NCBI GenBank assembly: GCA_018401875.1
Contig: JAGYJZ010000003.1
Span: 62,001-126,000, forward strand
Reading direction: 5' to 3'
DNA length: 64,000 bases
DNA from: Salibacteraceae bacterium
GTDB taxonomy: Bacteria > Bacteroidota > Bacteroidia > Flavobacteriales_G > Salibacteraceae
The position numbers and the translations under genes were made by a program. Of this stretch, positions 26,583 to 51,800 are shown in pieces. The notes below the pieces were generated by a model. That model was not told where the DNA came from. It worked only from the letters and a program-made list of their open reading frames with translations, and ran no database searches. Position 1 is the stretch's first letter. Every line of letters begins with the position of its first letter.

Positions 26583-27614
26583 TTATGAAATAAAAGAATC
26601 AAACTCAATTTCGGAAGATTTAAAATTTGTTTCGAATCCAGTAAACATTTCCTTTCTCCTCAGTTGTATCATCCCCGTGGGCCCTTGTTTGTTTTTAGCC
26701 ACATCAAGATCAGTAATACATTGGGTTGAATAACCATCGGCATCTTGAACAATACTATAGTACTCTGCTCTATACATAAAAACAACCTTATCCGCGTCCT
26801 GCTCAATAGCTCCAGACTCGCGTAAATCACTCAGTTGTGGTCTTTTATCTCCACCTCTTGTTTCCACCGCTCTGCTCAATTGAGATAATGCAACCACAGC
26901 CACATTGTGCTTTCGTGCAATGTTTTTCAGATGACGGCTAATAGATCCTATCTCTGCTTCTCGGCTTCCGCTATTACGTCTAGAACTAAGCAATTGTAAA
27001 TAGTCGATTAAGATCACCTTTACACCGTGCTTTGAAATGTGCTCTTCGCACATGGATTCAAAAACAGAAATGGAATCGTTGCCACTGTCATTCAGAAACA
27101 GTTTGTGTTTCTCTTTCAAGTCAGTGTAAGCCTGATTCAGTTGCTTGCGCTCATCATCAGTCAACCGCTGCTGTAAGATTTTATCTACGGTAATATCTGT
27201 TAAATAGCTTAGCATGCGGTAGGCTTGAATATCCATGCTTTGATCGAATCCAAAGTACAATACCGGAACCTGCTGAGATACTTGCATGGCTAATTGGTTC
27301 AACCAAACACTTTTACCCATACCAGGTCTACCGCCAAAAATCAAAAGCTCACCGCACACAAGTCCACCAAACTGATCATCATAGGGTGCATAGCCTGTTG
27401 GTATGATCAAGTCTTGCCCTTGCCTCTTCTCTAGTTTATCCAAACCAGCCTTAACCAAATCTTCCATCTGTTGAGAAGGCTTAGGCGGATTTCTCGAAAA
27501 TTCAGAAGTAAAGAGCCACGCCTTTACATTCTTCAAAAGAATCTCATCTGTTTTACTTTCTATAATAGCATTTTGAAGTGCTTCTTTTTTTAGTTCTAGG
27601 TCGTTTGTTGTCAT
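26583..27614 (-). CDS. DnaB-like replicative helicase C-terminal (RecA-fold) domain protein lacking the canonical N-terminal DnaB domain
   Basis: 'IPTGYAPYDDQFGGLVCGELLIFGGRPGMGKSVWLNQLA', 'VKVILIDYLQLLSS', 'VALSQLSRAVETRGGDKRPQLSDLRESGAIEQDADKVVFMYR'. Confidence 0.92.
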   Translation of the reverse strand: MTTNDLELKKEALQNAIIESKTDEILLKNVKAWLFTSEFSRNPPKPSQQMEDLVKAGLDKLEKRQGQDLIIPTGYAPYDDQFGGLVCGELLIFGGRPGMGKSVWLNQLAMQVSQQVPVLYFGFDQSMDIQAYRMLSYLTDITVDKILQQRLTDDERKQLNQAYTDLKEKHKLFLNDSGNDSISVFESMCEEHISKHGVKVILIDYLQLLSSRRNSGSREAEIGSISRHLKNIARKHNVAVVALSQLSRAVETRGGDKRPQLSDLRESGAIEQDADKVVFMYRAEYYSIVQDADGYSTQCITDLDVAKNKQGPTGMIQLRRKEMFTGFETNFKSSEIEFDSFIS

Positions 27615-27620
27615 AGGGTT

Positions 27621-29105
27621 CTAATGTTTTTCATTACTATTAATTCTGTCCCAAAGCACACGCCAAATCTCTACCATAGCCAGTGTATCAAGCTTACAGT
27701 ATGCCTTAAGGTCTGCCAAGGTTTTTACCAGGTTGCCTTCAAACCGGTTTTCAAGCATACTCAGGTAAACTTCACTGGCCGTGTTGCCATCTTGTATATC
27801 CAAGTCATCGTATTTGAGATCTGTCAAAGCAGGCAACACCTTCTTTATGGATGCTGAGCCATTCATGGCAGGCATATAACACCAATGACTACGGAATGGT
27901 ACGATAAGGTCAACCACCCGATCATGAATGGCCATTAATTCATCCGCATAGCTAGGGAAGCTCTCAGCCAAGGCTTTGATCTTTCCTTTTTCGAAGCCCA
28001 TGTTGTAGGTTACAATGCTGCCTTCCGTTCCCAAGTCAAGCAACATTTGTTGGATCACCGTCTCCCTTGGATCGCCCAAAGGATCGGCTAATAATTCTCG
28101 ATGCTCTAACTCACCATCAGGCGTATGCAGAATATGCAAGCTGTATTGATGTGGATATTGCTGGTAAGGTCGCGTGCCATCAAAAAGCGGTATAGAAGGT
28201 CCTATGGTCTCAAAATCGAAGAAGTACAAAGGATACTGCCATTCTGATAAGAAATCACGTATCGCGTTCTTATCAAAAACCTCCTTATTATACTTCTCTC
28301 CATCTACTTGATTGCGTTGTTTAGCATTCAAGTCTAAATCATCTGGAATATCCGTAATGGCAATAATTCCTTCGTTGAATAACTGCCAACCACGTGCACC
28401 GATGCGTGAAATATTCAATACATTTTGCTCTGGCACGTCCATCCAACAAAAACTTATAAAGTCACAAGGAAACGGATCGGAACAATGGGGACCAATTGCA
28501 ACCTCTGGTGGCGATGATTGTCTCAATATGGCTGAAAAAGCTTCTATGCGATCGGGAATCCCATTTTGTAACGGCAGGATTTCTTCCAAAACAGATTGCC
28601 GGGTAAATAGCTGGTTTAAATCCAACTCACCTTGTCTTTCATATTGGTTATTGATGTACATCACTTCAATGTCCACCAAGTGAATTCCTGCTTGCCTGAA
28701 TGCATAAAACTGAACTGCAGTATCATTGATGTGATAGGCCTTTACGCTTGTGCTACTTTTCACCTCTATTGCTTGCCATCCTCCTGCTTCCTTTACTAAT
28801 ATATCCATTGCAGCATAAATACCTCCCGCAGATACTGCAGCCTCGTAAATCACCTCTGCACCCTCTTCAATCCATTGCTTTGTTTGTTGCAATCCAACAG
28901 GAATTCCATCAGGACGACTAAAGTCTGGGGTGGCATCCTTTCCTCCAGGAAATATGTGCTGAGCTAACTCACCCACAGAAGATCCCTGAGCAAACAATGC
29001 CTCTTGTGCATAGCTAAGCGCATCTCGCAGGTCTGGCTGATGCTTGTCAAGCCACAATCGTTTTTCACATTGTAAGCCCTTAATGTATTTAGATTTTGAA
29101 AGCAT
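27621..29105 (-). CDS. DUF2779-domain protein (Cas4/RecB-like plus exonuclease-like region)
   Basis: 'MLSKSKYIKGLQCEKRLWLDKHQPDL', 'AIEVKSSTSVKAYHINDTAVQFYAFR', 'YFFDFETIGPSIPLFDGTRPYQQYPHQYSLH'. Confidence 0.85.
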   Translation of the reverse strand: MLSKSKYIKGLQCEKRLWLDKHQPDLRDALSYAQEALFAQGSSVGELAQHIFPGGKDATPDFSRPDGIPVGLQQTKQWIEEGAEVIYEAAVSAGGIYAAMDILVKEAGGWQAIEVKSSTSVKAYHINDTAVQFYAFRQAGIHLVDIEVMYINNQYERQGELDLNQLFTRQSVLEEILPLQNGIPDRIEAFSAILRQSSPPEVAIGPHCSDPFPCDFISFCWMDVPEQNVLNISRIGARGWQLFNEGIIAITDIPDDLDLNAKQRNQVDGEKYNKEVFDKNAIRDFLSEWQYPLYFFDFETIGPSIPLFDGTRPYQQYPHQYSLHILHTPDGELEHRELLADPLGDPRETVIQQMLLDLGTEGSIVTYNMGFEKGKIKALAESFPSYADELMAIHDRVVDLIVPFRSHWCYMPAMNGSASIKKVLPALTDLKYDDLDIQDGNTASEVYLSMLENRFEGNLVKTLADLKAYCKLDTLAMVEIWRVLWDRINSNEKH

Positions 29106-29139: not shown

Positions 29140-29532
29140 TTAAGCATAGTCAATGAAATCGAGCGTAAAAGCATTGGCACATAAGTTCCCTTTTAACTTC
29201 ATTTTTTTCATCCATTGATCTATTGCGTCTAATTCAGTTTGATCCGTAATCTTTCCTCGGAAATCAACATGATAAACGCTCTCTTCTCTCACGAGTAAGG
29301 CATGTCTATGGCATTCTTCTGTTCTATTCAACACCCGAAAACTAAACAAACGTCCTACACCTTCAAAGCATGGCCTCAAAAATCGGTTACCGATGATGGC
29401 GAGTCTCTCATTATCCCTATAAAACTCTGAAGGACTTATGTATTCTCTGATGACATAAATATTACTACCAGCAAGTATTACCTGGGGTTTGCTCCTTTTC
29501 TTTTTCCATGAAACCGGTGATTCAAATTCCAT
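29140..29532 (-). CDS. hypothetical protein, 130 aa, first gene of predicted island operon 2
   Basis: ORF preceded at 30 bp by the shared 27-bp motif; no family recognised. Confidence 0.7.
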   Translation of the reverse strand: MEFESPVSWKKKRSKPQVILAGSNIYVIREYISPSEFYRDNERLAIIGNRFLRPCFEGVGRLFSFRVLNRTEECHRHALLVREESVYHVDFRGKITDQTELDAIDQWMKKMKLKGNLCANAFTLDFIDYA

Positions 29533-29646: not shown

Positions 29647-30390
29647 TTATGTGCGAGTGTTTCTATTCCACAACCCTTGTCTAAACTTAGTAATATAGGA
29701 AAACTCCATTGCGCTGATTTCATCTTTTGTAGATTCATTCATACTATGAATTGCTATACCTATTTTTTTCCCAATTAGAATTTCATTATTGACTAACTGA
29801 TTAATTCTGACACTAGTAGCTTGGCCTCCTATTATACACTTCCGAGGTGTTACTTTCAAATAATTGGTCAGTCTTTCAAATGATGACTTTGCTTCGCCAA
29901 AGTATAAAGGACAAAACGATTCTAGATTATAGAAACAATAAACACCTTTTGACCTTATCAGTTCTTTGCGTGTCTCAGAATGAATATCAATAAAGCAATA
30001 TGGCCCAAAACTGCTTTCAAAAAGCAATAACTTATTTCTTCGATCGTGCTTATTAACCAGTTCCGGAAGTAATACCCTGAGAGGAGTTAAGAGCTCATCA
30101 CCATCAAAACTCATCAAAATTTCATGTTGTAATGCTTTCGAGCATTGATCATTTAGGGCGAGATCCATGGGTGTTGAGCTACTCCTGAGTAATGAAAAAT
30201 CCACATCAACATTCAATTGAATATTACGAATGGGAACTTCAGTAAATGAACTCAACCAATCTTTATCACATTTCTTTGACATTTTGTAGCTCCATGTTTG
30301 TTGGGTCTTTTTAATATTCAATGAATAATCCTTCAGATTTATAACTCTCTTCGAATTTTCATAATAATCAAACAAATCTGCATCACCCAA
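29647..30390 (-). CDS. hypothetical protein with C-terminal GIY-YIG-like domain
   Basis: 'SKGVYCFYNLESFCPLYFGEAKSSFERLTNYLK' fits G-V-Y ... Y-F-G ... R spacing of GIY-YIG. Confidence 0.6.
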   Translation of the reverse strand: MGDADLFDYYENSKRVINLKDYSLNIKKTQQTWSYKMSKKCDKDWLSSFTEVPIRNIQLNVDVDFSLLRSSSTPMDLALNDQCSKALQHEILMSFDGDELLTPLRVLLPELVNKHDRRNKLLLFESSFGPYCFIDIHSETRKELIRSKGVYCFYNLESFCPLYFGEAKSSFERLTNYLKVTPRKCIIGGQATSVRINQLVNNEILIGKKIGIAIHSMNESTKDEISAMEFSYITKFRQGLWNRNTRT

Positions 30391-30465: not shown

Positions 30466-30891
30466 TTAGTCTTTAATTAAAAATAAGAAGTGATGAATGC
30501 TCGCCCATTTTGCTAATATATCGAGCTCTTTTCTATGGATAGGTTTTGAAGGCCTACCTAGAACTTCGGTTATAACATTTCCCTCCGTCACGAATACAAT
30601 GTGGTTTTCAAGAAAATCGTTTTGCCAACGAGAAATATCCCAAACATGAATTCGCCCTTCCTCGCAGTCTTCAATTCTCTTATGAAGGTCATTCCTAAAT
30701 AGGAATGCCTCATTAAACAACTCGAAACCGTTCGTTAGCTCATGGAAACAATATTCCAAGCCGCGTTCAGATTTCAAGATGGTGTCTGAAATGCCTAATC
30801 CAGACCAAATCGAGATCAACAATGGCTCGGCATTCACTCTTTGAGCAGACAAGGTTCGTTGCTGCACTTCTTCAATTAGTCTGTTATTCAT
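30466..30891 (-). CDS. hypothetical protein, 141 aa, adjacent to the AAA+/M41 gene
   Basis: ORF separated by 3 bp from the upstream AAA+/M41 gene; no family recognised. Confidence 0.7.
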   Translation of the reverse strand: MNNRLIEEVQQRTLSAQRVNAEPLLISIWSGLGISDTILKSERGLEYCFHELTNGFELFNEAFLFRNDLHKRIEDCEEGRIHVWDISRWQNDFLENHIVFVTEGNVITEVLGRPSKPIHRKELDILAKWASIHHFLFLIKD

Positions 30892-30894
30892 TTC

Positions 30895-32883
30895 CTATGA
30901 TTTAGAGTGATTCAAGCTAGGATTAACCAATAGTTGGTATGTAGTCTGATCTGAATTTTCATTATCAAACAGCATACTCCTGTAATCTCCTTTTGATTCA
31001 ATTACTTCGAGTTGAAACTTATTCAATATCAATTGAAATTGCTCTCCAGTTAGTTTAGCCTCATTCGCTAATACCTTTGCTACCGTTTTCAAAACATGAA
31101 TATTCTTGTTCAATAATCCTCTTGCACGATCCGCATTATATTCAAGTAATCGTTTTACTTCGGCATTGGTATCATCGCACGGTCTTAGCGTATCGTCAAT
31201 AAAGATGCTCGACTCTGAAAACACCATTAGTTTACCCGACATACCCGAGGAATTAACCGCTGATTTTGCAAACTCCGTGGCAGCTCGCAAATCAGATTCG
31301 GCACCAAACGATATGTTGTCTTTTCCAAACACCAATTCTTCAGCGATCAATCCACCAAAGAGAATGGTGAGTTCATCCTGGAAGCGGGTTTTATTCATGA
31401 TCCGTTTTGAATACCTGCGTTCTACACATCCACTAATTGAATCGTTTGCACTTTGAGCAATGATCTGCTCTGGCACCTCATGATTCAACAAGTAATGCAG
31501 AAGTGCATGCCCCGCCTCATGCACCGCAACCAATGCCTGCATGTCGTCTTTCTTTGGCCTCTTAAGCTTTTCAATAAACGAAAACAGCTCATGCTTCAAA
31601 ACCAACTTTTCACCTCTATTGATCAACACTTTGTTTGATTCAATTTTCCAAATAAATACCTCGTCATTCTTTAGATCATGTTGTTTCGAGAAAAGCAATA
31701 AATGAGGCAATTGAGCATCCACCACACTTGAAATAGTCCCAAATAAAGGTCGCGCTCCATGGGCTGGTGTAACTCCTTCGGATATGATGTAGTCAATAAC
31801 AGAAGATTCGAATTCGCAGTTGATTCCAAACCTTACAGCAAGTTGATTGCGGGTAGACTCCAATTTCATTCCTACAATTTGTTTGAATTCTGAGGTTCCA
31901 AAAGCAGGATAAATCACGTGGTTATTGCCTAGCCTCGCCACTTGTTCGGGCCTAAACCTCTTCAATAGAGACTCCTTGATCTTACTCACCGAAATGTTTT
32001 CACTTTGTTTTCTAAGGTTATCTGCACTACTGTCGCTGCTCGTATTGCGACTCATCTGAAATGCCTCATCCAAATTTCCAACTACGAACACCAAGCACTT
32101 TGTGCAATCTATAATGATCGGGTTTAGACTGGCCTTGCACGCACGTTCCATAAGTTTCAGGCTTCCTATGTGGTCAAGGCTCAAAATTTGCTCCTTGAGC
32201 ACTGCATAGGAAGAGTATTCTCCTCTTAATTCCTCGTAAATATTTGCCCAATAATCCGTTGGGATAAACCAGTCTTTAGGCTTGCTATTTGAAGCTTCTG
32301 AAAGATTGCGAACCTCGTTTACTAGCTTCTTCCCTTTGGTGACTTTACCATTTTCAGCTTTCACTCCGCGTTCTACAAGAAAGTTCAGTTGACGCAACAG
32401 ATCATAAAGATCGTAGCGGCCAAACGACTGCTCATAGTATTGAATCTTTCCTGAATCAAATAAGTCCCAAATCGGCTGAACATCTAATAAATTTGTTTCC
32501 TTTCCGATTTCATCAATTGTTCTAGCATGTTGAAACTCATCCAGCAAAATGACATGCTCTTTTCCATTGCGCTCTTTGTAAAGGTTTTCGAGTTTTGCTA
32601 AGAAACCTGTTCTCCTGCCCCTTCCAGTATCTAGAACCGTAGAATAATCGTTGAAATCAAGAAGGGTGATGAGCTCGCGAACAAGTTGTGTTTTTCCTGA
32701 ACCGGTCAATCCCCAAAGATTTATGATTACCGGTCGAGTTTGTAAATCGGGTAAAGCATACCAAGGAGTAACAAGATGGATGACTTGATCTATGATCTCA
32801 TCTAATCCAACAAATTTTGATTTCAGCTTTTTACGAGCGTTTTCCAGGGTCTGAAGTCTCCTGTTCAGTTCTTTTGTACTCAT
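30895..32883 (-). CDS. chimeric Clp/HSP100-type AAA+ ATPase fused to C-terminal FtsH-like peptidase M41 domain
   Basis: Walker A 'GLTGSGKT', Walker B 'HVILLDEF', 'KRFRPEQVARLG', sensor-2-like 'GARPL'; then zinc motif 'HEAGH' and third-ligand region 'FGAESDLRAATEFAKSAV' as in FtsH. Confidence 0.88.
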   Translation of the reverse strand: MSTKELNRRLQTLENARKKLKSKFVGLDEIIDQVIHLVTPWYALPDLQTRPVIINLWGLTGSGKTQLVRELITLLDFNDYSTVLDTGRGRRTGFLAKLENLYKERNGKEHVILLDEFQHARTIDEIGKETNLLDVQPIWDLFDSGKIQYYEQSFGRYDLYDLLRQLNFLVERGVKAENGKVTKGKKLVNEVRNLSEASNSKPKDWFIPTDYWANIYEELRGEYSSYAVLKEQILSLDHIGSLKLMERACKASLNPIIIDCTKCLVFVVGNLDEAFQMSRNTSSDSSADNLRKQSENISVSKIKESLLKRFRPEQVARLGNNHVIYPAFGTSEFKQIVGMKLESTRNQLAVRFGINCEFESSVIDYIISEGVTPAHGARPLFGTISSVVDAQLPHLLLFSKQHDLKNDEVFIWKIESNKVLINRGEKLVLKHELFSFIEKLKRPKKDDMQALVAVHEAGHALLHYLLNHEVPEQIIAQSANDSISGCVERRYSKRIMNKTRFQDELTILFGGLIAEELVFGKDNISFGAESDLRAATEFAKSAVNSSGMSGKLMVFSESSIFIDDTLRPCDDTNAEVKRLLEYNADRARGLLNKNIHVLKTVAKVLANEAKLTGEQFQLILNKFQLEVIESKGDYRSMLFDNENSDQTTYQLLVNPSLNHSKS

Positions 32884-32969: not shown

Positions 32970-33881
32970 CTATCCGTTATAAAACTCGTTCAATTGCTTA
33001 ATCCAATCCCCCATTTCTTCCCTTAGCCATTGAGGCTCTAAGATTTCCACTTCAGGGCCTTTCATGAGTATACGTTGCTTAAACTCATAGTTTGGCGCGA
33101 GGTAAAAACCGATTAATACCGAGTCTTCATTCTCTTCTAATAGCATTTGAGATATATGCAGCGGTTGAGATAATTGGTACTTAGCTTCTTTGGTGGTATA
33201 CCTCACTTTAATTTGGCACTCTTCTCCTTCTGAGTATATCAGGCCTACAATAGATCGCAACCTGTCAATGACTTTATCGCGTTCGCTTTTCTCAAACGCT
33301 TCCTCTGTAAGTTCTAAGGATTGAATTCTCTCCAATCCGAATGTTCTAATTTCTTTCCAGTGGGTCTCAAACCCAATCAAGTACCATCTTCCCAAGTATT
33401 CCTTCAGCAGGTATGGATATAAATTGTGAGGCTTAGCTTTATCTGAGCTAAATGATTTGTAATCAAACTTAACCTTCACTTTGGCTTTCATAGCTTCAAG
33501 AAGAACAGGAAAATACTCAAAACCTCCCTCTACCTCTTCATTCACATCAAAATCCACAAAATTCATCACCTGCTTTGCGTCCTTCATGGAATCAATTAGA
33601 AACGATGCTTTATCGGCTAGCTGAAATAGGTGAATGAATCGGTTGAGGTTTACTTCGCTTTCTGATTCAACATAATATCCTCGTGCGTCACGATCATAAG
33701 CAATCTCAATACTTAGATCATTTCGAATTTCATGAAACTTGCGTTCAATGGTTCTGGTGGAAAGATTCAAACCTCTATTCTCCAATATTACTTGCAGGTC
33801 ATCTAAACTGGGATAAGTTTTCGACTTTAAAGCCCGAATGATCGTATGATATTCTTTCCAAGTTTGACTGCGTTTTGACAT
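32970..33881 (-). CDS. WYL-domain transcriptional regulator
   Basis: N-terminal HTH-like region, 'YLLKEYLGRWYLIGFETHWKEIRTFGLERIQSLE' WYL motif, C-terminal WCX-like extension. Confidence 0.92.
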   Translation of the reverse strand: MSKRSQTWKEYHTIIRALKSKTYPSLDDLQVILENRGLNLSTRTIERKFHEIRNDLSIEIAYDRDARGYYVESESEVNLNRFIHLFQLADKASFLIDSMKDAKQVMNFVDFDVNEEVEGGFEYFPVLLEAMKAKVKVKFDYKSFSSDKAKPHNLYPYLLKEYLGRWYLIGFETHWKEIRTFGLERIQSLELTEEAFEKSERDKVIDRLRSIVGLIYSEGEECQIKVRYTTKEAKYQLSQPLHISQMLLEENEDSVLIGFYLAPNYEFKQRILMKGPEVEILEPQWLREEMGDWIKQLNEFYNG

Positions 33882-36665: not shown

Positions 36666-36678
36666 AGTTTTCAATCTG

Positions 36679-36750
36679 TTGCCCCACTAGGACTCGAACC
36701 TAGACTGACGGTACCAAAAACCGCTGTCCTGCCAATTAGACGATGGGGCA
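36679..36750 (-). tRNA. tRNA-Gln (TTG)
   Basis: Minus strand TGCCCCATCGTCTAATTGGCAGGACAGCGGTTTTTGGTACCGTCAGTCTAGGTTCGAGTCCTAGTGGGGCA; 7-bp acceptor stem; anticodon loop TTTTGGT. Confidence 0.95.
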
Positions 36751-39831: not shown

Positions 39832-42800
39832 TTATTTAAGAATCGTAACTGGTCCAGTAATTAAGTTTTTCACTTGATCGTCCTTCAGATCAATTACGTA
39901 GTAGTAAGTACCCACGGTAAGTTCTTTACCATTGTGTTTGCCGTTCCAAGGATTCGTGTACCCAGCAGAAGACTCATAGATTAGGTTACCCCAACGGTTG
40001 AATATCTGAACAATCGCATTTGGGTATCGGTCAATGCGATCGATCAAGAAGAATTCATTCACTCCGTCACCGTTTGGTGAGAATCCTCCAACTGGGTCGA
40101 CCAAGTCTTCAACAGTTACCGTCATGCTATCCACGCCAAAACAACCGTCAGCATCTGTAGCGCTTACATAGTAAGTAATGGTTTCCAATGGATTCGCTTG
40201 AGGATTGTACTCTGTTACACTGGTCAAATCACGTGCTGGTGTCCACACAACATCTACACCTGAATTGGCCGTTGGCGCTCCACCGATGGATGTAATTCCG
40301 CCCGGCTCGATGGTTTTATCAGGGCCAGCGTCAACACCCGGACCTGGAGTCCACGAGATTCTCAAGGTGTCGCGAGCAACACACACATTATTGATTCCTT
40401 CGTAAATGATGGTAGTAGTTTGCTCGGTCGTATTTACTACGGTTGAGTTTCCACTGCCAATCACCACACCATTTGATCTCAACCATCGGGCCGATGATGC
40501 ACCTGAGTTTGTGCCGGTAACAGTTATTTCATTGCTAAACGGACACACCTCAAAATCATCCATTACCGTTACATCTACAAAGAACTCTGTGTCAATCGTG
40601 AATGAATCAGTGATGATACAACCCGATGCATCGGTAACGATCAAGGTATAGTCGCCTGCAATAACTCCGGTTAAATCAGACGCAGTCAGAATTGAAACTG
40701 AATCGCTGATCCAATTGTAGGTGTATGGCGCGGTGCCGCCTGTTACAGTGATTTGCACTTCTCCGTCACCCGTATTGGTGCAGGTGGCATTGTTGATAGA
40801 ATCAAGCGTAATCACCATCGGTGATGGTCCGCCCGCGGTTTGAGTAGTAATAAATGTACATCCGTTGGCATCCGTTACAGTGAGCGTATATGCTCCTGCG
40901 CACAATCCTGCGATGGTGCTATCAGTTTCGCCATTGCTCCAAGCGAATGAGTAAGGAGTTGTTCCGCCAGTGATGCTTACATCTATCGTTCCATCACAAT
41001 CAGCACCGCACGTCACGTCTGTAATTTCTACAGACTGCAGGTTGATCTCTGTTGGTTCACTGATGGTATAGATATCAAACGAAGCACAAAGGTTCGCATC
41101 TAAAACCGCAATCGTGTCATTGCCCGCACAAAGCGAGTCGATGTCATCTGTGGTGTCTCCGTTCGACCAAAGGATGGTGTATGGTGCTGTTCCTCCAGAG
41201 ATGGTAGTGTTTATTTCACCATCGCACTCGCCAAAACAACTCACATCCACCAAAAGATCGAGGTCGATCACTGGCGCATTAGCATTGTTTAAGATGAATC
41301 CAGAGGTATCTGTACAACCGTTTGCATCAACAATCTTCAAGGCATAGATTCCAGCGAACAAGTTTGTAGCTACACTATCGGTTTGCGCGGGAATCAAAGG
41401 CGTTCCAAAAGCATCGAGCCATTCGTAGGTGTATGGTCCGCCATTTCCACCGGCTGCGGATACCGTGATTGAACCATTATTCACCTGACAATCAGGATTC
41501 ACTTGAGAAATCAAGTTTCCTACTATTGGCGCAGGATCATCGATCACAAATTCTAGGCTATCAGAGCATCCGGCAGTATCTGTAATGGTAACACTGTAGG
41601 TTCCACCGCACAAATCTGTGATTGCAAGGGTGGTGTCGCCTGTATTCCAAAGAATGCTGTACGGTGGATTTCCACCGGCCACGTTGATGGCTATGTTTCC
41701 ATCACATTCGCCCGGACAAGTGACATCATTCACCACAGAAGTGATGGTGAATGGTTGTGGGTCAGCCAACTCAACAGAGTCGATGATGGTTGCTCCGTTG
41801 TCATCGGTCAGCGTTAAAACGTATGTACCTGAACAAAGACCAGTGATCAATGATGCAGTGGCACCGTTTGACCAGGCAAAATTGTATGGAGGAACTCCGC
41901 CTGTTGCAACAGCATCAATTTCACCATCGCAGCCGTTGCCAGCGCATGAAATCTCGATCACGTCAAACGTTACATCCAATACATCTGGTTCAGTAATGGT
42001 AATGGTATCAATGGTTGAACATCCGCTGCCATCAGTTACTGTAACAATGTAAAATCCTGCACACAAGTTAGAGGCCGTTTGCGTGGTTTGTCCATCAGAC
42101 CATAAGTAGGTGAGGGGAGTAACCAAGGAGTTTACCGTGGCTGTTCCGTCACACACACCACTCGCTGAAGTGTTTGTTGATGTCAATAAAATACCAGGGC
42201 CGTTTATTTCAGATACGGGATAACCAAACACTTCAAAGCAACCTGAAGCATCTGTTACCGTGAGGTCATAAAAGCCTAGGCAAAGTGACCCTAAGGTATC
42301 TGATGCAGCGCCCGTTGACCATGCATAGGTGAAACCACCTGCTCCACCCGCGATTGTTGGGATGATAGATCCATCGCACACGCCACATGTGGCATCGTTT
42401 ACTATTACAGCAGTTTGAACAATTGCTGCTGGTTCAGTGATAGTGAATGTATCGAGCGTTGTACAGCCATTAATGTCGGTCACCGTTAGGAAATACGTTC
42501 CAGCACACAGTCCGCTTGCGAGCGATAATCCATTGCCATTTCCAGGCACTGGACTCCAATTGAATGAGTAGTTTCCTGCACCTCCTGAGGCAGTGATCGA
42601 AATAGAGCCGTCACATACTCCGTTGCACGAGGCATCTGAGATGGTGCTTGCAAGAACGATTTCTGTAGGTTGGTCAATGACGAACGTGGCGATTGAATCG
42701 CAGCCCGCACCATCACTAATTGTAACGGTATAACTGCCTGCACAAAGTCCTGCATTCGTTGCGGAGGTTGATCCGTTGCTCCACGCAAAGGTGAATACTC

Positions 42801-45800
42801 CAGAACCACCCGTTGGTGCCAAGGCAATAGACCCGTCACATGCGCCAAAGCATGAGGCGTCAGTAATCGTTTCATTCGGGTCGATGAGGTCGGGAACATT
42901 CACAGAAACGATGTCTGAGCTTATACAACCTGCACCATTTGTCAACTCAACACTGTATGTTCCAGCGCAAAGGTTTGAGATGGTATCAGTTGTTCCGATC
43001 ACCAATCCGGTGCCAAGGTCAGTCCATTCAATCGTGCAAAGCGGACTTGTGCACGTGTATGAAGCAAATACTTGACCATCGCAATTTCCGCAAGAGGCAT
43101 CAACACTGTCGGCTGTTACAAGATCAGCACCATTGGCGTTGATGGCAGCATTCGCTACCAAAGTACAACCATTAGCATCGGTGATCGTAACTTGGTTCAA
43201 TCCGGCACAAAGTGCGTTATTGGTCGCTGTGGTTTGACCATTGTCCCATGCGAATGAATACGGTGCACCTGCAGCGGGAAGTGGGTTAGCCGTGGCTGTT
43301 CCGTCACACACGATGCAACTTGAATTTGTTATTCCTGAGAAGGTGTTTGTGATTGGAGCAGGGTCAACCAGTAAAATACAGAACTGCTCTATACACCCGT
43401 TGGCATCGGTAATATCAACACAATGATTTCCTGCGGGAAGTCCAGTTTCTGTTTGGGCAGTGTTACCAGAAGCCCATAGATAGGTGTACGGACCAGTGCC
43501 TCCTCCGCCAGTGATTGTTGCTGAGCCATTTGCATCACCAGCACACAATGGGTTGGTTACCCCTGAGAATACTCCTGTAATGGCTGCAGGGTCGGTCAAT
43601 ATCACCGTATCAAGTGCGGTACATCCACCAGCGTCTGTGACTTCTACAATGTACGATCCTGCAGAAAGTGAGTTCAATGTATCAGTGACGAACACTCCGT
43701 TCCAGATGAACGAGTACGGTGCAGTGCCTCCAGTGGCTGCAGCTGCAACCGATCCATTGTTGTCGCCATTACAAAGCAAGGTGTTGATTGCAAAGGCATT
43801 TACCGATACGCCATTGGCAGGCTCATCGATGATCACGCATGCCGTGTCTGTACAACCCAATGCGTCCGTTACCGTTACGCAATGCACACCAGCGCTGAGC
43901 GAAATGGCAGTGGTAGTTGTTTCTCCATTATCCCAAAGAACAGTGTAACCAGGTGTTCCTCCTGTAGCTGAAACAGATGCTGATCCATCAGCACCGCCAG
44001 GGCAAGACACATTGGAAATGAATACCGTTGAAGCCACAACAGCTGTTGGCTCTGTAATTGAAATCGTATCGAGGCTAACGCAACCTGAGTCGTTCGTCAA
44101 TTGGGCATAATATGTTCCTGCACTCAGACCCGTGGCTAAATCTAGATTACTGACAACCGCTCCTGAGGCAGAATCGATCCAAGCGATGGTGCACGGAGCA
44201 ACGTTACAGTTGTATGTTGCCAAGGCAGAGCCATCGTTTCCACCATTGCAGGTAGCGTCAGTTACTACAGCAGCGAAAACAGTATCAGCACCGAGGCTTC
44301 CAATGTTTACAAAGAAGGTATCAACGCAACCATTAAAATCGGTTACTGTCACTGCATTGGTTCCAGCGCAGAGGCTGGTTCCGTTGGCTGTTGTTGATCC
44401 ACTCGCCCAAGCAAATGTGTAAGGCGCTGTGCCATTGGTAATGGTTACTGTGGCTGTTCCGTTGCACGTGCCACATGCTGAAACCGTAGTTCCAGAGAAC
44501 GAAGCAGTCATTGCAGCTGGATTCACCACATTCACAGTGCTGTTTCCTGAACATCCGCTTGCGTCTGTTACGGTGTAAGCGTAAGTGCCTGCAGAAAGAT
44601 TTGTTCGTGTGGCGTTTGTAGATGCATCATCCCAAAGGAAGGTATAAGGTCCTCCGTCTCCGCCTGCTCCCGTGAGCGTTACCGAACCATCATTGCCATT
44701 CGGACACGTTGGCAATGCAACGGCTGTGGTGGCGGTCACTGGCAATGGGTCAACAATAGTTACGCATGCGGTATCCTCACACACCCCACCGTCACTTACC
44801 GTTACACAGTAAGAGCCGGCTGGCAATAATACCGTGGCTGTTGTTTGACCATTTGGCCATAAGAAAGTGTACGTTCCACTTCCACCTGCTCCAGAAGCGG
44901 TGATGGAAGCGCTGTCTCCAGTGCATGAAGGTTGTGAATTAACCACCAATGAAGCACTTAACCCCGTAGCGGGTTGATTGATCATGATGTTGTCTGTTGC
45001 AATACATCCATTCGCATCTGTTACGGTAAGGATTACCATTCCTGCGGGCAGCGAATCAGCGGTTGCGCCAACATCGCCATTTGACCATGTCAATGTATAA
45101 GGTGCGGTGCCGCCACTTCCTGCTCCAGTTGCCGAACCGTCAGTTCCATTGAAACAAAGGTTGTCTACGCTGCCAGTAATTGTAGCAACAAGTAAAGTGG
45201 GTTCATCAATCGTTACCGAAGCTGAATCAACACATAATGTGGTAAGGTCGGTTACAGTTACGGTGTGGAGTCCTGCTGTTAGGTTGGAAACAATAGCGGT
45301 TGTAGAACCATTATCCCACGCAAAAGAATAGGCTCCCGAACCGCCTGTTATTACTTGTACTTCGGCCTCACCATTGGTGTTTCCATTACAATCAATGTCT
45401 GTGCTATCAACAATAGCCACGGTAAAGTTTCCTGGAGGATTCAAGAAGTAGGAAGCATTGTTTTGACATCCATTTGCATCCGTAGCGGTAACGCTGTAGG
45501 TGCCGGTAGTTAAACCAGTGATCGAATTTCCTGTGGAACCTGTATTCCATAAATACGTGTGGGCGCCTGTTCCACCGATGGAAGCCACGATAATCGCTCC
45601 GTCATTTCCAGGGCCAACGCATGAAATGGGCGTTTCCGTAAAGGTGAAGGTAATTGCATCAGGGTCAGAGATACTTACACACGCTGTATCGGTGCATCCA
45701 AGTGCATCCGTAACGGTAACACAATGTATACCTGAATCGAGAGCAATGGCTAATGCGTTGGTTTCACCGTTATCCCACACAAATGTGTAGGGTGCTGTGC

Positions 45801-48800
45801 CGTTTGTTCCCTGCGCAAGGGCAGAGCCATCGCTTGAGCCGTCACACAATGCGTTGATCGGATTACTGATTGATGCAACAAGGTTAGAAGGGGCATTTAC
45901 CGTTACTTGAGCGGTGTCGGTGCATCCGTTATTGTCTGTTACAGTAACAATGTAGGTTCCAGCATTTAAATTTGAAATGGTGTCGGTGGTTCCGCCATTA
46001 CTCCAAGCATAGGTATATGCTGGCGCTCCGCCTGAAACGGTTACACTGGCGACTCCATTGGCTACACCGCATGCAGCATCAGTAGAATCCATAACAAGAT
46101 TCAGTGGAGAAGGCGCGTTGATAATAATAGTATCATAACCATCACATCCAAAGTTCGTGGTTAATCTTCCTAAATAAGTTCCAGGACAAAGACCTGTAAT
46201 AAGATCTCCAGTCCCTATAAGGTTCGTAGTATCCAGTCCACTATACCATCTGTATGGTTGACAACCAAAGAAACACGTATAATTTGCATCTGCAGTTCCA
46301 TCGCAAGTATTGGCGCAACTAGCTGCGGTTGCTGTAATAGTAACGTTAGGAACAAAATTATCACTGACATTAACGGCATTTGAGTCCACACAACCATTGG
46401 CATCAGTAACCGTAATACCATAAGGGCCAGAACATAAAGCTGTAAGTTGATTTGTTGTGGTTGCAACACTATTAACCACACCATTACTCCAACTGTATGT
46501 GAATGGAGCCAATGCCCCAGTAACAGTAGCTGTTGCTGTCCCCGTGCAAACAAAACAGAAGCTATTTGTCGATGCAATTCCAACATTAATTGCCGCACCA
46601 TTTGGTAAGGTAGTGCTCGCAGTAACTGTACATCCATTGGCATCGGTTACCGTTACTGTATTTAAACCTGCGCTTAAGCCAACGGCAGCTGCTGTTGTCT
46701 CACCGCTGGTCCATAAGAATGTATATGGTGCATCGCCACCGGATGGCGCTACCGTTGCTTGTCCGTCATTGCCACCAAAACATGTTGGCGCTGCACTAGA
46801 CACTATTGAGGCCAACACTGGAGCTGGTTCACCGATCGTGAAATTCACCACATCGCTGCACGTTCCATCTGCAGCGGTAACGGTATAATTGCCTGCCGGT
46901 AAAACGCTAGATGACGCTCCCGAACCAACGCTTGACCAAGTATATGTGAAGTTTTGAGTAGTCGGAATGAAGGCTACATAATCATTGGTAGCACTGAAGT
47001 TGGTCAAGTTTCTTCCTGGCACTGCATACGCTTCAGTACCAGCAAAATTTTCAATTCCTTGCACCAATGGACTGCCATTAGGATTCAGCGCTTCAGAGTG
47101 GATCTGAATAATGTTTGACGTTTCGTATAAAACGATTTGGAATGTAGAAAGAATATTTGGAGACGGTGCTGCGAAATGATCAATATCGATGTAGTTGACG
47201 ACACGAACACGGTTTGGCGCAGTTCCAATCAAATATGTTTCCAAAGTTGTTACCCCCGTTGAAGGGTCTAAGTCGTCCCAATAAGCAGCGATAAAATCTC
47301 TTGGAGTGTTAGGTGCCGCACTTGGAATAGCTGTTGGAACTGAAAACTGACCATTCACCTGACCACTGTTCGGATTGGATAAATCAAAGGTGATGAACCC
47401 TTGAGAGTTCATGATAAAATGCGTGTGGTTGACGCCAAAGAAGCTAAAGTTTGCACCTCCGAAAATGTTGATGGTATCAGAAGTAGCGTCATCATCCAAG
47501 GTGATTGACTTATAGTTATGTGCATTCCACGGACGTCCTTGTGGATAGGGCTCGTATTCGCCTTCTGTTTGGTCGATGACGTATTCAGCGGTGCTTGTTG
47601 GGGCAACAGTTCCTCCATAAGCCGATAAAAATGCCGCTCCATCGGCAACTCCGTTGCAGCTCGCGCTATCCGTACTATCCACAACGGCATAAATTGAAGG
47701 TGGCTCAACCAAAGCCAGGGTTTCAACAATTTGACATCCATTGGCATCCGTCATGGTTACAGTATGTCCGCCACCGCAAAGACCTGTGGCCGAAGCTGCG
47801 GTAGAACCTGAACTCCATGCAAAAGTAATTGGGCTCGTTCCACCTGAAATGGTTGCTGAAGCTGCTCCATCGCAGGCGTCATCGCAACCTGGGTTTGTTA
47901 TTCCTGTAAACCCTCCAAACACCAAAGTATCTGGCTCAGTAATAATTGCTGTATCAACAGCTGAACAGCCGTTAGCATCCGTAATCGTTCCGATGTATGT
48001 GCCTGCTACAAGGCCAGCAATCGTATCCGTAGTTTGTCCATTGCTCCATGCGTATGTGTAAGGTAGTGTTCCACCAGCGCCCGTGATTACTGCAGAACCG
48101 TCATTGCCTCCATTGCATGTAACGTTGGTTAAGTTTAACGAAGATTTATCGAGGACCATACCAAAGGGTCGTACTTGAAAAGCTGCAAGGTCATTCCAGA
48201 AGTAACTGGCGCCAACGAATTCAATATAGTCTTCGTCACCACCAAAGTTGTTTGGCTCACCGGCATTCCAATTGAAATAAGTGGCTACCGTGCCATCAAC
48301 CCAAACATAAGTTCCTTCTACAACTTCATCCGTAAGACCAATCCAGCTATTGCCTGGTAAAACAGAACTGTAATACGCTTGATCAGTTGCATCGCTAATT
48401 ACTATAAGATCTCCCCCCGCAGCCAAAGCTGTCGCGCGAGCAGCGGTCCATGTTTGACTTGCCGCGTGATAGTATATAAACTCATTGCCATTCTCACCGA
48501 TATAAGTAAACCCGGGGATAACTGGCGGAGAATAAACTGTAGCAGAAAGAACGGTTGGCTCATCGATTACGACAGATGCCGTATCGGTGCAACCATTCGC
48601 ATCGGTAAGGGTAACCGTGTACGTTCCTGCTGGCACATTGACCAGTGAGTCGTTTGTGCTTCCGTTTGACCATGCATAAGTAATTGGTGCTGTGGCTCCA
48701 GTATTTGAAACAGTAGCTGTTCCGGTATTATCACCGTTGCACAATACATCGTTGACAAGAACGCCCGAGGCGGTCCAATTACAAGAGCATGAATCTGCCA

Positions 48801-51800
48801 CAATCACCTGAGCAGTGTCAGAACAGTTATTGACGTCAGTAACCGTAGCGATGTATGTACCAGCATCTAAGTTAGAAATCGTTTGTGTTGTTCCACCGCC
48901 TGTCCATGCAAATGTGAGAGGTGCTGTTCCGCCAACAACTGTCACTGAGGCTGAGCCATCATTTGTAACACAGCTTTCGTTGGTTATGAGCACGCCAGTT
49001 GCAGTGAGTGTTGGCGCAGCATCAAGTATTACTGATGCACTATCTGTACAGCCGTTGCCATCTGTAGTTGTAACGATATACGTTCCTGCGGGAAGTGCGG
49101 TAATCAGCGCTGATGTCCCTCCATTGCTCCAAGCATAGCTCAATACTCCTGTTCCACCTGTGGCTAATGCTTCTGTAGAACCGTCATTATTTGCGCATGT
49201 TGGGTTTATTGAATCAATGATAGAAACATTTAGCGCGGTAGGATCAACTAAGGTAAAGGTTGTATCATCTTGGCAACCAGCACCATCAGTAACGGTGAGT
49301 GTGTATGTTCCCGCGGGGATTCCATTTAGGAACTGGAACGTAGCTCCTGTTGACCATGCATAACTAAACGGTAACGTTCCTGTTCCGCCCACTACGCCTC
49401 CAATTGCTGAACCTGAACTTTCTCCCGCACATGTGGGGTCAAAAACAGAAACAGAAGCCACTACACCAACGCCATCAGTGATTACCACACTGTCTATCGC
49501 TTGGCATGAATTATTGTCTGTAACGGTTACTAGATAAGTACCCGCTGCAAGATTAGATATGGTATCTATTGTTGCACCCGTTGACCAAGAAAAAGTATAA
49601 GGACTCGTGCCTCCGGTTGGAGTTACTGAAGCACCACCATTATTGACACCAGCACACGAAGTATTGGTTGAATTGAATGTGAGTGAAATAGCCGTAGGTG
49701 CTGTCATGTTCTCCGTCTCAGTATCCGTGCATCCGTTAGCATCAGTCAATGTAACGGTATAAATGCCTACTCCTAATCCCGTGATTGAGGATGTTGTTGC
49801 ACCTGTGCTCCAAAGGAAGGTGTAAGGTGGAGTTCCGCTGCCTGGAAATCCAATGGCAGAAATGCTGCCGTCAGTTGCACCAAAGCAGGAGATTTGGGTT
49901 GTATTCGTAAATACTAAAGGAATGCTTGTTGGCGAATTTACGGTTCCACTTCCCGTTCCAGAGCATCCATTGGCATCGGTAACGGTTACATCGTAAACAC
50001 CACCCGCCAATCCTGTGATGTTAGCTGTCGTTCCGCCATTGCTCCAGGCGAACGTCAGTGGCGCAGTTCCACCGGTAAGCGATGCAGTTGCTGTCCCGTC
50101 AGAAAGGCCAAAACATGATACTCCGGTAGTTGTAACCGTTGCTGCTAATCCAGTAGCAGGCTGGTCAATAACCACCGTTTCATCATCGGTGCAACCGTTG
50201 GCATCCGTTGCCGTAACTGTATAACTTCCAGCTATTAAGCCATTGATTGACTGCGTGGTTGCTCCTGTAGTCCATAGATAAGTGTAGCCGGGCGTGCCTC
50301 CAGTGGCATTGTTCGCAGTAGCTGTTCCATCATTTCCTCCAATACAGCTCACATCTGTTGATGATGCCGTAACGCTCACTGCACTCAGCGGCTGGGCAAC
50401 AGCTTGTGAAGCCACATCATCACAGCCATTTACGTCCGTTACGGTAACGGTGTAATTACCAGCAATGAGCGAAGAGATGGTTTGGTTTGTAGAGCCTGTG
50501 CTCCAAAGAAAAGTATATCCTGGCGAGCCGCCTGCACCGTTTGCAGTAAGCTGACCGTCAGAACCAAGAAAACAACTTACATCACTGTCTAAGTTGATCG
50601 ATGCCACCACCGCTGCTGGATCAGTGAGGGTAATGGATATATTGTTGGTACATCCTGAAGCATCTGTTGCTGTAACAGAATATACTCCTGCCGTGAGGTT
50701 CGTAATTGTGGGGGTTGTAGCTCCAGTGCTCCACAGAAAAGTAAAAGGCCCGCCATTAGAACCCGATGCAGATGCTGTGATTGAACCATCAGCATCTCCT
50801 GCACACGATGGCTGAGTGAGCACTGTGTCAATTACGATTGGTGTAGGCTCTGCGATGGTAAACTGCACCGTATCTGAGCAGCTTCGCGCATCGCTGATGG
50901 TTACTGTATAGTTTCCTGCTGTAAGGTTCGTAGCTGATGTACCTGAACCAATTGCTGACCAACTGAGTGTGAAGTTTTGGGTTTCTGGAATGAATGCGAT
51001 GTAGTCGTTCGTTGCCGACCAGTTTGCGGCTGTTCTTCCGGGTGCCGCAAATGCGATTGTTCCAGTACTATTCTCAATGCCTTGGGTGTGATTGCCTCCA
51101 TCAGAAGGAAGGTTTGAACCAAAGATTTCAATGATGTTTGAAGTTTCATGGAGCACGATTTGAAAAGTTACTTCATTTGCACTGCCAAAATGAGGTACTT
51201 CTATAAAATTGACGACCAAGGCTCGATTAGCGCCTGCACCGATGGTATAAAATTCAATTTCACCGCCAACTGCAGGGTTGAGGTCTTCCCAATATGCAGC
51301 AATTAAATCATTGGGTAATCCCGCGGCAGGGATATTCTGTCCGCTGCAACATCCATTTGCTGCGCTTCCAGAAAACGTGATAAATCCGTTAGACGAAATC
51401 CTGAAATTAGTGTAGGTATTGCCAAAAAACTCAAAACTGAAACCAATCGGTAAAACTGGCGATACTTGATCATCGCCTAACGCTACAGATGTGCCACCTG
51501 CAAAAGATGTGTCATACGGCTCGAATGTACCTTCGGTTTGGTCGATGATATAGCCTGCAGTAGAAGTAGACGGGCCGTATCCCCCGTGAGGCGAAAAATA
51601 GGCTTGACCGTCATTTCCACCATTGCAGGTTGCATCAAACGTAGAATCCACTGTGGCGAATATTGCAGGACCATCGGGTATGACTACTTGATCGACCACT
51701 TGACAACCGCCAGCTTCAGTAACCGTTACTGTTCTTACCCCGCCACATAGTGCACTATTTGTAGGACCCACCGTAGAACCGTCATCCCATAAATAGGTTC

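Follow-up and report, generated by a model that had tools for sequence, protein, structure and literature searches.

A predicted soluble protease that joins an HSP100-type AAA+ module to an M41 zinc peptidase in one chain

The window, a 64,000-nucleotide stretch of DNA from a Salibacteraceae bacterium, encodes a 662-residue protein (P0001) in which an ATPase half of the HSP100 D2 type is followed, in the same chain, by an M41 zinc peptidase. The domain class, the zinc ligands and the lack of transmembrane segments support what a sequence-only reading of this DNA had proposed, namely a soluble single-chain HSP100-M41 chimera, with proteolysis itself as the predicted activity. We consider it probable that P0001 acts as a soluble hexameric ATP- and zinc-dependent protease and that, in the group of related loci called clade I below, it is controlled by a WYL-domain regulator.

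Results and Discussion

One chain with two predicted enzymatic halves

The interval from 30895 to 32883 does encode the chimera, as had been proposed, but the strand needed correction: the open reading frame runs on the minus strand, from 32883 to 30895, and the plus strand is stop-rich there. All motifs quoted in the sequence-only reading were located in P0001, among them KRFRPEQVARLG...IYPAF at residues 308-328 and ESDLRAATEFAKSAV at residues 529-543 (Table 1). Peptidase_M41 and ClpB_D2-small both exceed their curated Pfam cut-offs. Generic AAA models gave only sub-threshold Pfam matches over the P-loop region, with PF00004 below its cut-off, and AAA_lid_3 (PF17862) is absent, the D2-small lid being found instead. 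The protein has a single AAA module, with Walker A already at residue 58, and neither an N-domain nor a D1 ring; AlphaFold modelled the whole chain with a pLDDT of 90.1 and a pTM of 0.86. Since the same genome also encodes FtsH, two two-ring HSP100 proteins and ClpX, the chimera is an addition to the standard set. Full-length homologues (24-38% identity) in over 100 loci, together with catalytic residues that do not vary in any of the 72 aligned members, argue that it is not a chance open reading frame.

Table 1. The chimera gene, its domains and motifs, and neighbouring features, in window coordinates
Feature	Position	Strand	Basis
HSP100-type AAA+ / M41 peptidase chimera, 662 aa (P0001)	30895..32883	-	ORF, Pfam, alignment of 72, AlphaFold
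AAA+ large subdomain, HSP100 D2 type, residues 1-329	31897..32883	-	hhalign to ClpA/B/C D2, score 131, E 6.3e-18; Foldseek of residues 1-409
Walker A GLTGSGKT, residues 58-65	32689..32712	-	G58, G61, K64 invariant in 72
Walker B ILLDE, residues 112-116 (LLDEF = 113-117)	32536..32550	-	D115, E116 invariant in 72
Insert at HSP100 pore-loop-2 position, residues 147-258	32110..32445	-	Length 86-183 residues in every member; mostly helical by prediction
Sensor 1 Asn270 (VGNLDEA)	32074..32076	-	Invariant in 72
Arg finger R317 (FRPEQVAR, aligned with ClpB FRPEFLNR)	31933..31935	-	Invariant in 72; alignment to ClpB
ClpB_D2-small lid, residues 331-403, with sensor 2 GARPL (376-380; R378)	31675..31893	-	PF10431 E 1.1e-9; R378 invariant in 72
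Peptidase M41 domain, residues 448-617	31033..31542	-	PF01434 E 1.9e-21; PDB FtsH matches
Zinc motif HEAGH, residues 455-459	31507..31521	-	H455, E456, H459 invariant in 72
Third zinc ligand Asp531 (ESDLR)	31291..31293	-	Invariant in 72
WYL/WCX-domain transcription factor, next gene upstream on the same strand, 87 bp from the protease gene	32970..33881	-	PF13280 E 1.1e-14
141-aa orphan ORF, starts 4 bp after protease gene	30466..30891	-	Position
DUF2779 protein, weak Cas4-like match; recurrent island neighbour	27621..29105	-	PF11074 E 2.3e-40
DnaB_C-type RecA-fold ATPase; recurrent neighbour (4/45 clade-I loci)	26583..27614	-	Pfam, locus counts
tRNA-Gln at conserved edge of low-GC variable region	36678..36750	-	Comparison with congeners

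The ATPase half is of the HSP100 D2 type

The HSP100-like character ascribed to the ATPase half was borne out by HMM scores, profile alignment, structure search and phylogeny. An HMM built from the AAA part of the family gave 68.2 and 68.1 bits to the D2 modules of the two ClpB/ClpC-type two-ring HSP100 proteins encoded in this genome, 64.7 bits to E. coli ClpB D2 and 37.5 bits to ClpA D2, with about 21 bits to ClpX and Lon, 10.7 to HslU and 7 to FtsH. By hhalign the AAA part was collinear with the D2 modules of ClpA, ClpB and ClpC over its whole length, including FRPE..R and GARPL, and scored 131 versus 41 for FtsH. When residues 1-409 were modelled on their own with AlphaFold and searched with Foldseek, the first 50 PDB matches were all HSP100 D2 modules (ClpB NBD2, ClpC, ClpA, Hsp104 and Skd3), with no FtsH among them. 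The NCBIfam models for ClpB and ClpA align to residues about 277-403, and PDB sequence matches fall to ClpC/ClpB D2 over residues 282-403 and to FtsH over 450-647. In a tree of AAA modules, a branch with support 88/81 places the family together with HSP100 D2 and apart from D1, ClpX/HslU, FtsH and Lon; as the branches are long, the tree is used as supporting evidence only. Taken together, the ATPase half of P0001 is an HSP100 D2-type AAA+ module, and the HMM scores and the search with the isolated half rule out an FtsH origin for it.

Intact catalytic residues and no membrane anchor

The assignment of the second half to the M41 zinc peptidases was confirmed by Pfam (PF01434), and the zinc site is intact throughout the family, with HExxH and the distal Asp that provides the third ligand present in all 72 members. 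The catalytic residues are invariant in the whole alignment at a mean column identity of 25%, as are P51, D272, L306, E313, G319, G376, P471, G511 and E515; the Arg finger and sensor labels are taken from the alignment to ClpB and from established HSP100 knowledge. Invariance of the ATPase and zinc residues in members as diverse as these points to both activities being under selection.

Hydropathy agreed with the earlier claim that N-terminal transmembrane segments are absent. The maximum 19-residue window of P0001 is 1.52, and that of its first 120 residues 0.76, as compared to 2.32 for E. coli FtsH, and by the same comparison no transmembrane segment was seen in any of the 72 relatives.

A widespread family, also on large viral contigs

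Among genomes of the family Salibacteraceae, full-length homologues with 34-37% identity were found in 3 of 34 others, and none in the 12 other genomes of the same genus; at the level of the class, 19 of 395 genomes carry the family. A profile search of bacterial genomes yielded at least 117 loci, and the 80 that were kept are almost all from Bacteroidota, the exceptions being a small number of Methylophaga, cyanobacterial and actinobacterial MAG contigs. Viral contigs queried with a single sequence gave nothing, whereas the alignment as query found 24 IMG/VR loci on contigs of 25-548 kb. The viral members represent 20 distinct loci and are located in at least three places of the family tree. 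Family members on the large viral contigs (up to 548 kb; L086-L109) have intact catalytic residues, and one of them (L094) lies beside a clamp-loader-like gene.

In plasmid and phage collections only the M41 part of FtsH proteins was matched. Three plasmid matches named 'AAA family ATPase' turned out, when checked, to be conventional membrane FtsH homologues. No whole-protein family corresponding to the chimera was found in Pfam, NCBIfam, PHROGs or PADLOC, nor was an HSP100-M41 fusion found described in the open-access literature, which is weak evidence of absence; the family is widespread and apparently undescribed.

Genomic settings and a possible role in defence

Based on the tree and the neighbourhoods the family occurs in three settings: WYL islands (clade I), a chromosomal lineage (clade II) and large phage contigs. 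Clade I, which includes the window, is a grouping based on neighbourhood and similarity; the tree does not show it as a single supported branch. A WYL-domain regulator is encoded within 5 kb in 31 of the 45 clade-I loci, usually directly upstream, against an expectation of 0.07 based on how densely WYL genes occur in 119 genomes of the class. A DUF2779 protein accompanies 11 of the 45 (0.03 expected), and PDDEXK_4 nucleases (PADLOC candidate PDC-S26) were found in 8 of the 80 scanned neighbours, with 0.01 expected; because the loci are related, these counts are not fully independent. GmrSD, HEC-06, PD-Lambda-2 and a methyl-directed REase occur as single clade-I neighbours, as do UmuD-like S24 and SRAP proteins, and PDC-M21 is also among the clade-I neighbours. 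Enrichment of defence genes beside the chimera was observed in clade I only. A search for a shared downstream partner showed that, in most loci, a different gene follows that of the protease. Small neighbours that by eye resembled uracil-DNA glycosylases had no Pfam match, and this identification was dropped.

Clade II comprises 51 chromosomal loci, none with WYL. Here, a DUF4407 membrane protein is encoded immediately upstream of the chimera in 20 Chryseobacterium loci, and 5 loci of Saprospiraceae type carry an SPFH/Band_7 protein instead (L034, L038-L040, L042-L043 and L045 are among the loci with such partners). A soluble protease with a separate membrane partner recalls HflKC-FtsH and prohibitin-m-AAA. 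As a separate observation, 2-3 kb separate WYL from PDDEXK_4 genes in G077, G087, G126, G133, G138 and G147, genomes in which the chimera was not detected, hinting at a separate WYL-PDDEXK_4 (PDC-S26) system, and WYL and DUF2779 genes lie within 3 kb of each other, with no chimera detected there, in two more (G116 and G132).

In the window, the 141-residue open reading frame that follows the protease gene is a probable operon partner; it had no match in Pfam, PHROGs, PADLOC or NCBIfam, and a search for relatives found none. The GC content is 0.36-0.43 over 26-36.8 kb, as compared to 0.44-0.50 on most of the flanks, and this low-GC region ends at the tRNA-Gln gene. Beyond the tRNA, each of three congeners (L141-L143) carries different genes, in one case with IS3-like transposase genes; an empty site could not be shown cleanly in the congeners, where the left flank is located elsewhere. 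The island further contains a small orphan frame (29140-29532, minus strand) without a convincing family match, and a 247-residue frame (29647-30390, minus strand) whose GVYCFYN...LYFGEA resembles a GIY-YIG nuclease by eye, with no Pfam match at E<=1. At 39832-53454 (minus strand) the window encodes a repeat protein of 4540 residues whose C-terminal segment is of a kind typical for Bacteroidota adhesins and looks SprB-like by eye.

These surroundings raise the tentative possibility, plausible for clade I and based on neighbourhood, that the chimera serves as an effector of anti-phage defence: a protease, repressed or induced by the WYL factor, which would degrade phage or host proteins on infection. 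The nuclease and other defence-type neighbours of clade I, the patchy occurrence within family and genus, and a low-GC region beside tRNA-Gln that is different in each congener are consistent with this, and WYL regulators are known to control CBASS (PMC9122588) and BREX (PMC9122589). However, the clade-II loci are chromosomal, with DUF4407 or SPFH partners and without WYL, phages carry family members too, and no PADLOC model covers the chimera protein, to which only weak P-loop matches were obtained. The UmuD-like S24 and SRAP neighbours suggest DNA-damage control instead. PafBC, a WYL regulator of the ssDNA-triggered DNA-damage response (PMC11804915), is encoded beside the pupylation gene pafA and so links a WYL regulator to a system of ATP-dependent proteolysis (PMC5656591). 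As WYL factors are known from CBASS, BREX and PafBC alike, DNA-damage control would account for the WYL link just as reasonably. A role in defence would be compatible with either of the enzymatic modes considered below, processive or switched.

Pore loops and proposed mechanism

The stretch from the strand after Walker A to Walker B is about 33 residues long in the family, versus 46 in ClpB/ClpA and 43 in ClpX, and the corresponding hhalign gap removes GAPPGYVGYEEGG, the aromatic GYVG pore loop 1 of HSP100 proteins. The short replacement loop has an aromatic residue somewhere in 51 of 72 members, but not in one fixed column. At the site of HSP100 D2 pore loop 2 every member carries 86-183 residues between LLDSGK and the sensor-1 strand, and in the AlphaFold model of P0001 this insert is predicted as helices and a small sheet. 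Since the canonical pore loop 1 is deleted and its replacement offers no aromatic in a fixed column, processive threading is not assured, and the missing loop together with the large insert leaves processive unfolding of the ClpB or FtsH kind in doubt.

The same features would suit the main rival reading, in which the protein is not a processive unfoldase but a site-specific protease switched by nucleotide. The HSP100 ring would then only open or close access to M41 or position one insert-bound substrate, for example a repressor or an antitoxin, and a WYL neighbour with variable orphan cargo genes would fit such a dedicated target. We nevertheless regard this as rather unlikely, as all residues for ATP hydrolysis, including those for sensing between subunits, are invariant as in a cycling motor, and most members retain an aromatic in the short loop.

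In the mechanism that we favour, the HSP100 D2-type motor and the M41 domain in one chain would form a soluble self-compartmentalised protease. The subunits would assemble as a hexamer, with R317 of each subunit completing its neighbour's ATP site, and the ATPase ring would be stacked on an M41 ring where HExxH and Asp531 carry out the cutting. Hydrolysis of ATP would push or gate substrates into the peptidase chamber and, as there is neither an N-domain nor a membrane anchor, the pore-loop-2 insert probably recognises substrates or adaptors. In clade I, expression would be controlled by the adjacent WYL regulator.

Relation to known AAA+ proteases

It is highly improbable that P0001 is an ordinary FtsH that has diverged and no longer has its membrane anchor: M41 and the AAA-M41 domain order are the same, which explains why FtsH ranks first in whole-chain Foldseek, but at 11-15 A rmsd as compared to about 5-6 A for ClpB NBD2, whereas the NCBIfam FtsH equivalog (TIGR01241) gives 72.6 bits against a cut-off of 600 and aligns over the peptidase part only, ClpB_D2-small replaces AAA_lid_3, the AAA half alone matches HSP100 D2 only, and the plasmid FtsH proteins, as controls, have PF00004, AAA_lid_3 and transmembrane segments. 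With FtsH, m-AAA and i-AAA the chimera shares a single chain of ATPase followed by M41, and HExxH plus Asp; from FtsH it differs by its AAA class, its lid, the lack of transmembrane and periplasmic domains, and the large insert. With the D2 modules of ClpB, ClpC and ClpA and with the single-ring Skd3 it has in common the AAA+ fold, the FRPE..R box, the GARPL sensor 2 and the D2-small lid, although it differs from HSP100 proteins in having a single ring, no N-domain or D1, no GYVG loop and an insert at pore loop 2. Moreover, rather than dock ClpP, the chimera has a metallopeptidase of its own covalently attached. Lon is likewise a soluble single-chain AAA+ protease, with a partial profile match in the P-loop part, but has a serine-lysine peptidase and another lid and N-domain. 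CapW-CBASS, BrxR-BREX and PafBC-pafA similarly place a WYL factor beside a conflict or stress operon, and we know of no HSP100-M41 protein in these systems.

With the full set of ATPase and peptidase catalytic residues in one chain, P0001 would belong to the functional class of ATP-dependent AAA+ proteases and would work like one of them, but by the features that define FtsH and HSP100 it fully belongs to neither. We think it unlikely that the family is a distinct class of soluble AAA+ proteases that moves substrates by the pore-loop-2 insert without a GYVG loop, and that bacteria use it within anti-phage islands under WYL control, with large phages having copies of their own.

Textbook AAA+ proteases form a short list: ClpXP/AP/CP, HslUV, Lon, FtsH and the proteasome-type enzymes. 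An HSP100 motor and an FtsH peptidase in one soluble chain would be an independent solution to the same problem. As the canonical pore loop is missing, the family would provide a natural test of which parts of the motor protein unfolding requires, and, given its WYL and nuclease neighbours and its phage copies, a role in phage-host conflict can be tested directly.
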